Assembly: GCF_000001735.4 (NCBI RefSeq)
Contig: NC_003070.9
Location: forward strand, 5,828,001-5,892,000
DNA from: Arabidopsis thaliana
Taxonomy: Eukaryota; Streptophyta; Magnoliopsida; Brassicales; Brassicaceae
Direction: 5' to 3'
Length of the DNA stretch: 64,000 bases
The position numbers were made by a program, and so were the translations under genes. Under the pieces are notes generated by a model. The model ran no database searches. It saw only the letters and a list, made by a program, of their open reading frames with translations, and was not told the DNA's origin. This document shows, piece by piece, positions 4,282 through 7,255 of the stretch; the stretch's first letter is position 1, and the number at the start of each line of letters is the position of its first letter.

Positions 4282-7255
4282 CTACAGTTTTCGGATGATC
4301 AAATGAGCTCCATGTTGTGGAAATGTAGTTGCAGCTGGGAAAGGAGCATGAGTATACGATGGAGAGAGTTCAACACTGAACCTTTGAAGTACCATTGCCA
4401 AGAAGAGTTTAGCTTGCAACATCGAAAAGTTCTGACCGATACAAGTCCGAGGGCCCGAGCTAAATGGCAAGAAGGAGAGTCTTCCTTTGGTTGCACCCGC
4501 CACGCCATTGGCGAATCTCTCGGGCTTAAACTCTTTCACATCGTCTCCCCAAAGATCAGAATCATGGTGCACCAAGAGCATTGGTATTGTTACTACAACT
4601 CCTTCAGGTAAAGAGAATCTCTCTAGCTTCACTTCTTGTTTAGTTATCCGACATGTGAAGTAAGCTGGTGAATAGAGTCGTAGAACTTCATGGAGGATCA
4701 TTGTTACCTAATGATAATAACCAAAGAAGTTGTTAAAAAAAACAACCCTTTTTTTAGTTATAATGTGGTTTAGTCACTTTTGAAAATGTATACTTACGAC
4801 TTTCAGGTGGCTTAGCCCTTCGAAATCGGGTTCGTTGTTACCGAAGGCCTGAGAAATCTCGTCTCTTGCTTTGTTTTGCCAATCTTGATGTTGGCTTAGA
4901 GCAACAAGTGTCCAAACAAACAATGAAGAAGTCACATTTTGACCAGCTAGATAGAAAGCCTTGCAGTCATCTATCAGATCATCAAGACTCAGCCCTGAAT
5001 CTGGTCCTTGTTCTTTGATGGTTTTTGTATTCGAAGCCAACATCGAGAACAACAGTCGCTGTTTTTGTCGGTACCTCTTCCTCTTTTTATCTCCTCCTCT
5101 TTTGTCTCAATCATCGCTTTAAACATAGCCCTCATGTCCCTTTCGGTTTCTCTCAACCTCCTGTTGAACTTTGTTGGCAAAAACCTGCACATAGAAAAAC
5201 TGAATCAGCAAAACTAGCTTCCGACTTTTTTAATTAAACGCAGTTGATTTTAGACAATTTCTTTACTTTGAGCCAGGAATGTAGACGGCTCGAATAGCAA
5301 GGAGACCAAGATCAATCTGTTCTTGTTGGATTTCGAAGATCTTGATACCATCTTTGTAGGAATCACCAAAAGAAGCACGAGCAAGCATGTTTCTGGTTAA
5401 GTCATGACAGTGAGTCCATGAATCAAGTTCCATTGTTCCTTTTGCTGAGGCTAATCTCTCCCATTCTTCTAACATTTCTTTGCAACTCGAGTTAAATGCT
5501 GGTAGTATGCTCTGTTCATTTATACCATTTCAAAATCACTACCAAATTTCACACCAAAAAAAATCACAGAAATGGGTCTTTAAAGAAGCTTACATTTTGT
5601 ATATTATTTATTGCTACTTATTTGCTCATAATGTTTTTGTTAAAGATGATGAGTGCTCTGCATATGTGAGGTTTCTACACTGATAATGAAATGATAAATT
5701 CTTTTTGTCGAAATAAATTTGGTATTTTAGAAATTCTTGAGTTGAAATATGATGATTTCATTTTCACCTTCTTGTAATGTGCCTTTTTGGCTTTTTCTGT
5801 TTTTTTTGCTTTTAGACTTTTAAGTTGGGTGACTTGGTGGCGTGGCGTGGATTCTTTAGTTCTTTGCTGACTTTTTTTTTTCTCCGTTTCTTCTTTTTCT
5901 ATAAATACCTTTTTTAGGTATTTCTTTATGTTCTTTCCGGGATATTTAATATTTTTTTGTTTAAGAGATTTTTTTTTTCTTTTCTGTTATATCTTGATTT
6001 TTTTATTTTTTTTAAATAGTTAATACATGATTTTTTTTTTAATATAATTATTGTTTAAATCTCTGAGCTAAGAAACAAGAGGAAAGACGTTACTTTATCT
6101 GACTTTTTTCGAAAAAAAGTAAAGAGAGAATGAAACTGACCAAAATCTAAAGAATGAGACGAAAATGACGTCCACAAAGTTCACATTATGTCAGAGTTAA
6201 AAATCAATTATAAAAAAAACAAAATATAATTATTAGAGTCAAAATGAGCATTCTATATATTCTCTTCTTCTTTTTTGGTAAAAGAAAAACATACCTTCAA
6301 ATTATCAATACGAAAAGCAGGATTAAGAATGCTTCGATGCTTGGACCATTTAGGACCTTCGTGATTGAGAAGACCACTTAGGAAAACATGATTATGTGAC
6401 CCGATCTTTGGTTTTGGAAAGAGTTCGTGTTTTGACATAATCTCTCGGAGTGTCTCTGGATCCATTACTATCACGTTCGGGTACGGTCCGTACCATGTGA
6501 AACACTTCTTCCCTATTCAAACATATATTCATTAATTATTACCATTTGTTACTTTTAAATTACCAAATTCACAAATGAAACAAAACAAAGCACATACAAC
6601 AATCATATGTATATTGAACTAGATTTAGACAAAACCAGGGAAACAAAGGGTATCAGATTTAGATCTTAATTATGAAAATGTGTATCATTCTATAATCTGT
6701 ATACACATTAAACTCCTTTTATTTCTTAACTCTGAATTTCTCTGTTCATATATTATACTTTTTGAAAATGATAAAAAAAAAAAAAAGTCATGATGGAAGA
6801 AGATGACCTACTCCTAGTCAAAATTATAAATAATCGTTATGAATCTAACCCAAGATATGTCAAGTATATATAATTGGTTCTTATATAGATTCACATTTCT
6901 TTCAAGTAATTAAATAACCCCATAATTAAAACAATTGATATACAATTTAAGTTGAGGTTGATGGGATCATACCATGTTTTAGAACAGTGTGGTGGAGAAA
7001 AGGCATCATGCGAGGGAGAAAATCGGCGTCGAGAGGAAGAGGAAGAGAGTGAGCAACTTGATCCATCTGATTACTCTCTCTCATATCTCCCATTAAAATT
7101 CTATAAGAATTCCCAGAGAATCCTTGTTTCTTCAGATATTTCTCCAGTCTCTTTGGCCTTAACCAAACCCAATTCACAGCTCTCCATACCCAATTCAGTA
7201 TCAAGATCAAGAATCCGATCAAGAACACTTTTCTTACCGTAATGATCTCTAACAT
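4282..7255 (-). CDS. CYP72C1: Cytochrome P450 72C1, atypical brassinosteroid-inactivating P450
   Basis: ER-anchored P450 known from overexpression mutants (SOB7/SHK1/CHI2) to lower brassinosteroid levels. Coding exons in transcript order: 6973-7255, 6295-6512, 5267-5511, 5075-5184, 4798-4946, 4282-4707. They total 476 aa, against about 510-525 for CYP72 relatives. A hydrophobic anchor lies near residues 8-27. Present are the K-helix ExxR (EVLR, about 342-345), PERF (about 397-400) and the haem loop FSSGPRTCIG with Cys near 424. The I helix is abnormal: the sequence is AGQNVTSS, where relatives have AGxETT, so the acid/alcohol pair is lost, and the preceding ~43 residues are removed by the intron at 4947-5074. 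That intron still resembles CYP72 coding sequence (see findings). Confidence 0.93.
4947..5074 (-). pseudogene. CYP72C1 intron derived from I-helix coding sequence
   Basis: On the minus strand this 128-nt intron starts GTACCG and ends TATCTAG. Read across a one-base frameshift it encodes a normal CYP72-type segment containing LLFSMLASN, LSLDDLIDDCKAFYL and then the exonic AGQN. Reading through in the upstream frame gives a stop after KDQIQG. Removing exactly 128 nt restores the frame to the haem loop. I infer that coding sequence acquired a 1-nt deletion and became an intron. Confidence 0.8.

Follow-up and report, generated by a model that had tools for sequence, protein, structure and literature searches.

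The 128-nt intron within the original exon 4 of the Arabidopsis thaliana gene CYP72C1 is most likely a young intron made from coding sequence, that is, a case of intronization. The whole account, in which a coding stretch suffered a frame lesion and is now read as an intron to give a 476-residue P450, is probably correct. Segment 5074-4947 would originally have been the middle of exon 4 and would have encoded 43 residues. A net loss of one base in or beside the segment would have thrown its downstream part off frame, with stops within the segment, and the transcript would now be read with the segment as an intron that has an average donor and a weak acceptor. As the ancestral segment would have been 3n long, its removal would join the flanking exons in frame and yield the 476-residue protein; this ancestral length is not independent evidence, because frame restoration demands it. 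The account has its basis in the coding origin of the segment, the frame lesion, the stop on retention and the absence of the intron from the paralogues.

All coordinates refer to the window, which is the whole stretch of 64,000 nucleotides that was analysed and occupies 5828001-5892000 of contig C1. Joining six exons of its minus strand gives 1431 nt and a P450 of 476 aa with no internal stops, which we take to be the annotated product of CYP72C1; the gene itself is presumably the one known as CYP72C1/SOB7. The exons below come from this join, and the intron from sequence, profile and composition.

6973..7255, minus strand, exon 1 of CYP72C1
6295..6512, minus strand, exon 2 of CYP72C1
5267..5511, minus strand, exon 3 of CYP72C1
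5075..5184, minus strand, upstream half of the original exon 4 (FLPTK..KRGR)
4947..5074, minus strand, 128-nt intron of coding origin, with donor 5074 (GAG/GTACCG) and acceptor ending 4947 (CTAG/CT)
4798..4946, minus strand, downstream half of the original exon 4 (AGQNVTSS..HLKV), with the altered oxygen-activation motif inside
4282..4707, minus strand, last exon of CYP72C1 (EVLR, PERF, haem motif FSSGPRTCIG)

An earlier, sequence-only reading had reported a length of 128 nt (3n+2), GT..AG ends and a spliced product of 476 aa, all of which were reproduced from the sequence. The comparisons below use 18 family members found by search, whose labels (CYP72A, CYP709B and BAS1) were assigned from genomic positions and are assumed to be right. 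One of the names, CYP72A15 for AT3G14690, is published (PMC5604286). The 476-aa translation carries the CYP72 family motifs ExxR (as EVLR), PERF and the haem-cysteine FSSGPRTCIG, and Pfam p450 matches it with 218 bits in two stretches, the better of which starts at residue 286, the A of AGQNVTSS. The published SOB7 RT-PCR reverse primer corresponds to 4287-4308, in agreement with the identity of the gene as CYP72C1/SOB7, and the forward primer, not contiguous in the window, bridges both sides of the last CYP72C1 intron. That intron is the only one crossed by the amplicon in PMC3516480.

Elsewhere in the gene, intron 2 (5512-6294) is 783 nt long, compared with 76-110 nt in eight CYP72A and three CYP709B genes. 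The haem loop FSSGPRTCIG (exon 4282-4707) is another departure from the CYP72A subfamily beside AGQNVTSS, as the third residue of the loop is Trp in all eight CYP72A proteins (FAWG or FGWG). In PMC3465265, SOB7 is amplified by qPCR with a forward primer that falls inside intron 2 (5849-5871) and a reverse primer in exon 3 (5288-5307); this qPCR may report unspliced RNA or a transcript with a different 5' end.

The claim that the removed 128 nt still encode a CYP72 stretch was borne out by profile comparison. Two profiles were used, one built from eight CYP72A exon-4 proteins and the other from three CYP709B proteins. Segment 5074-4947 by itself, in frame YRQKQRLLFSMLASNTKTIKEQGPDSGLSLDDLIDDCKAFYL, reached 16.7 bits with the former and 11.6 bits with the latter; the other five frames stayed below 0 bits against both. 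Codon shuffles reached at most 4.9 bits against the CYP72A profile (1596 of 2000 scored) and 8.1 bits against the CYP709B profile (1795 of 2000). The part of the segment beyond the lesion shares 11-14 identities per 29-32 aligned positions with the eight CYP72A proteins, for which the flanks give 8-11/36 on the 5' side and 26-33/50 on the 3' side; the four codons before the lesion (GTDK) match none of the eight (0/4). Differences from CYP72A at codon positions 1, 2 and 3 are 0.47, 0.31 and 0.59 in the segment, lowest at the second and highest at the third, beside 0.33, 0.18 and 0.64 in the 3' flank and 0.34, 0.46 and 0.52 in the 5' flank. The pattern of the segment is coding-like, in common with the 3' flank but not quite with the 5' flank. 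Its composition resembles that of the surrounding exon, with a GC content of 0.43, above all 51 family introns, and a T content of 0.25, below all 51. By profile and composition, the 128-nt intron is confirmed as former coding sequence that is now off frame.

At the place of the segment the reading frame is open in all 18 paralogues, and a spliced-alignment script found no intron within exon 4 in any of them. Eleven of the 18 (the eight CYP72A and three CYP709B genes) have four introns with phases 1, 0, 2 and 0, and CYP72C1 has the same structure apart from the 128-nt intron; the remaining seven are more distant, two of their alignments contain a stop, and they weigh less. Alignment of the interval with CYP72A genes, one part of the check proposed for the intron, found coding similarity across it, with exon 4 open there. 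The opposite direction of change, in which an old intron turned coding in CYP72A, was rejected in view of the open frame of all 18 paralogues and the match of the segment to sequence conserved among P450s.

It had also been claimed that the GT..AG pair was already present in the coding sequence. This is without support from the paralogues, as none of the eight CYP72A genes has either GT or AG at the aligned splice places. Well-scoring GTs and AGs do occur elsewhere in these paralogue exons (two of the three CYP709B genes, for example, carry a strong AG just one codon downstream), and the splice sites may predate the lesion inside the CYP72C line. Several CYP72A paralogues (G000:C3:4.91-4.94 Mb, L010-L017) hold donor-like GTs scoring 6.0-6.5 at other places of exon 4, from which it follows that latent donors are common in this exon.

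A pattern scan for orthologues returned 47 matches in genome contigs and four in viral contigs and confirmed no relative, as expected of collections without plants. CYP72C1 is described as Arabidopsis-specific in a review (PMC5684119), and Brassica orthologues, syntenic ones, are listed elsewhere (Bra026005, Bra026692, Bra016621, Bol038280, Bol009797 and Bol029295; PMC5604286). With the indel:substitution ratio assumed to be 0.12, a segment that has gathered 0.1 neutral substitutions per site would escape any further stop or indel with a probability of 0.10, and one that has gathered 0.15 with a probability of 0.03. A neutral divergence above about 0.15 per site since the event is unlikely, a loose bound that depends on the assumed indel rate. 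Set against known divergence figures, the bound would be consistent with an origin within the A. thaliana lineage or not long before it, and we infer that the change was recent.

The frame lesion and its consequence on retention were placed as follows.

5055..5109, minus strand, interval holding the frame lesion, best placement 5055 (two-frame join scores; open frame 4774-5106)
4989..4991, minus strand, first in-frame stop (TGA) on retention of the segment, codon 314 (translation)

With the segment included, exon 4 of CYP72C1 is 387 nt long, or one phase base plus 386, while exon 4 in the 10 paralogues measured is one phase base plus a multiple of 3. The loss of a single base accounts for this, and a net gain of two bases would be equivalent. 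To place the lesion, the two frames were joined at each possible break and scored against an 11-member profile, the upstream bound of the interval being set by the stop codon after which the other frame is open. The break at 5055 scored 128.8 bits and that at 5109 scored 127.8 bits, with the others among the best 25 at 124.8-126.2 bits; these scores point to the interval of about 5109-5055, not to a single position. The single missing base proposed near 5058-5064 therefore lies close to the best placement, but 5109 is nearly equal, and the claim stands for the interval only. No further stop or break beyond this one frame change is found in the segment's own frame. When the segment is retained, translation ends at codon 314, ahead of the haem-binding exon.

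Evidence from plants comes mainly from PMC3516480, in which all mutants are in the Col-0 background, BR is given as raised in the bas1-2 sob7-1 double null (citing Turk 2005) and the addition of sob7-1 to phyA phyB gave more germination. The same source reports a fusion, in frame at the last codon, of the 'entire SOB7 gene' (its only description of the insert) to uidA, with GUS stain in developing anthers, in the vasculature of rosette leaves and in the elongation zone of the root. As a retained segment would end the reading frame at codon 314, the stain suggests, without proving, that the frame is restored in vivo. It is not strict proof of frame because uidA has its own start codon. All SOB7-GUS lines but one resembled the double mutant, a result that the authors attribute to the lack of BAS1, and only one line shortened the hypocotyl (PMC3516480). 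BR levels were unaltered in sob7-1 alone, according to PMC3755919.

Splice sites were judged with matrices from 51 family introns, and a second run used 71 introns in six settings. The donor GAG/GTACCG scored 5.9 against a median of 6.4, with 23 of the 51 family introns as low or lower, and its level was reached by 5.5% of 857 exonic GTs; by this yardstick it is an ordinary donor. The acceptor at 4947 scored 1.7 against a median of 8.1, a value as low in 4 of the 51 introns and reached by 16.5% of 1380 exonic AGs, and it is weak. Restoration of an open frame by itself is not rare, being achieved by 55 of the 188 GT-AG pairs of exon 4 that lie at least 50 nt apart; pair 5074/4947 ranks fifth of the 188 and second of the 55. 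Efficient splicing of the segment in plants is what we infer.

A second acceptor has to be considered at this point.

4971..5074, minus strand, alternative 104-nt intron that restores the frame and gives 484 aa (splice scores, translation)

The intron could be real and yet end mainly at 4971, a variant that is compatible with the best explanation. Removal of 104 nt would leave a product of 484 aa that keeps DDCKAFYL and about two more turns of helix I, and this product fits the family profile better (99.4 vs 83.5 bits). Pair 5074/4971 ranks first of the 188 and of the 55, and 4971 scored above 4947 in all six settings of the 71-intron run. In the two shortest settings, however, AGs at 4995 and 5001 also exceeded 4947 and were roughly level with 4971, which indicates that the matrices discriminate poorly. 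The sole CTRAY branch-like sequence lies 27 nt before 4947 but only 3 nt before 4971, too near to serve, and the TTGAT found 11 nt before 4971 is weaker. Because of this branch-point geometry, and because the 476-aa form that uses 4947 is the annotated one, 4947 is the preferred, though not a certain, main acceptor; main use of 4971 is unlikely, if still a serious prospect. It had been held that only removal of the 128 nt, or one inserted base, would restore the frame; the removal does so, but so does the acceptor at 4971. The weak acceptor and the exonic composition of the segment would also suit a gene-model device, with splicing rare, most Col-0 transcripts truncated at codon 314 and CYP72C1 a near-pseudogene in this accession. 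The single SOB7-GUS line that shortened the hypocotyl and the start codon of uidA lean the same way, while the genetic effects of sob7-1 in Col-0, the stain from a whole-gene C-terminal fusion and the ordinary donor speak for splicing and make rare splicing improbable.

Two further accounts would preserve a full-length protein. A missing base that is a reference error or a private allele, with a 518-residue CYP72C1 in other accessions or even in Col-0, would agree with a segment free of decay beyond one frame change; the finished Col-0 reference is reliable, however, and with one assembly compared this is very improbable. That ribosomes restore the frame by slipping -1 at the CAAAAAC immediately upstream is scarcely credible. 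This sequence does precede the best lesion placement, and a shift there would enter the CYP72 frame, but it is not a proper slippery heptamer, the form of which is X XXY YYZ. Compared with shuffles, neither the downstream RNA (83 nt, z 0.34) nor the 128-nt segment (z -0.24) shows extra stability, and we know of no such case in plant nuclear genes. For the preferred reading, a coding stretch turned into an intron, speak the profile match, the 18 of 18 open paralogues, the ordinary donor, the CTRAY before 4947, and the SOB7 genetics and GUS stain; on the other side stand the weak acceptor, the exon-like GC and T contents, the 55 of 188 pairs that restore the frame, the behaviour of the SOB7-GUS lines and the BR levels of sob7-1. 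The proposal that a 1-nt deletion was rescued by intronization holds for the coding origin, the lesion and the frame on removal, but not for the order of events, as splicing first and deletion later fits equally.

When CYP72A exon 4 was aligned to CYP3A4, DDLLGILLES paired with DFLQLMIDS, and STEDLMEECKLFYF with SDLELVAQSIIFIF; the CYP3A4 stretches are taken to be helix H and the start of helix I. By homology, the 43 residues missing from spliced CYP72C1 would take in the helix-H region together with the first half of helix I, so that helix G would run at its end straight into mid-helix I. A folded P450 without these parts is hard to picture, which counts against the best explanation. Structure prediction covered an 87-aa contiguous unspliced piece only and gave low confidence (mean pLDDT 59.3).

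The P450 oxygen-activation motif is (A/G)Gx(D/E)T(T/S). AGQNVTSS departs from it and sits in the retained downstream exon, outside the removed 128 nt; the BAS1 gene, with AGKQTTS, is likewise without the acid. The description of the intron as a remnant of I-helix coding sequence is thus right for the upstream half of helix I (and for the helix-H region), but the oxygen-binding motif lies outside. The further claim that the oxygen-activation chemistry changed as a result was not upheld, since the changes in AGQNVTSS are separate mutations and the BAS1 motif is altered too. Because the altered motif lies in the retained exon, a causal link from the intron to altered chemistry is unsupported, although the missing helix-I residues just before the motif could affect chemistry indirectly. 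CYP72A and CYP734A1/BAS1 (the name we assume for the AGKQTTS paralogue) belong to the same P450 family as CYP72C1, and the eight CYP72A genes share four introns; against these, CYP72C1 has one extra intron, 43 residues fewer, and AGQNVTSS in place of AGQETT(S/T/A) or AGKQTTS. Three sources present CYP72C1 as an atypical P450 that catalyses an unknown reaction (PMC7550685, PMC5684119, PMC3465265). One of them (PMC3465265, citing Thornton 2010) states that SOB7 has a preference for typhasterol and no binding of brassinolide, and that modelling showed it as atypical.

Intronization itself is established. In the model set out in PMC9612004, a coding stretch of 3n length is spliced, then gains a stop, and the spliced form takes over; this stop-driven route is said there to have genome-wide support in Paramecium. 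PMC3443670 describes an alternative route and stated in 2012 that the stop-driven one lacked even indirect evidence. CYP72C1 resembles the model of PMC9612004 in coding origin, ancestral 3n length, exon-frame stops, exon-like composition and a weak acceptor. Its stops come from a frame lesion, whereas those of the model come from a point change, and the model's order of events and alternative-splicing intermediate would be conjecture for CYP72C1. Among the cases cited in PMC3565874 are 29 retrogenes of Arabidopsis and Populus. The intronized human retrogenes of that source share with CYP72C1 an indel near the new intron that compensates its length, the two together making a multiple of three; they are retrocopies, unlike CYP72C1, which has other introns and plays a genetic role. 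Arabidopsis exitrons, as described in PMC4484396 and PMC10985678, also originate from protein-coding exons, with a GC content above that of ordinary introns and a weak splice site. However, they are stop-free and leave a readable protein on retention, whereas the CYP72C1 segment contains the stop at codon 314; its 128 nt also depart from the multiple of three that is preferred, though not required, in exitrons. As in intronization, the segment has homology to related coding sequence, no counterpart intron in 18 of 18 paralogues, and GT and AG in splice context. No mention of the coding origin of the intron was found in the literature covered on CYP72C1/AT1G17060, to which the main gene papers (2005, 2010) did not belong. 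What makes the CYP72C1 case notable is where the intron lies, within the core of an enzyme that matters genetically.

For intron evolution, CYP72C1 provides a testable case, confined to one gene, in which a frame lesion was followed by the conversion of coding sequence to an intron; the many accessions and close relatives of the plant would allow the order of events to be dated. A bolder reading, which we hold tentatively and rate somewhat below an even chance, is that a genetically active P450 that inactivates hormones can do without both helix H and the first half of helix I, the coding stretch for which became an intron through a frame lesion. This would be stop-driven intronization in a plant, with a large structural cost that the enzyme bore or even turned to use; the acid-alcohol pair would have been lost along with a remodelling of the active site, perhaps to a form that does not hydroxylate. 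Should the 476-aa form be the one that functions, models built on an intact helix I would have to be revised, and a structural cause may underlie the atypical behaviour of CYP72C1.
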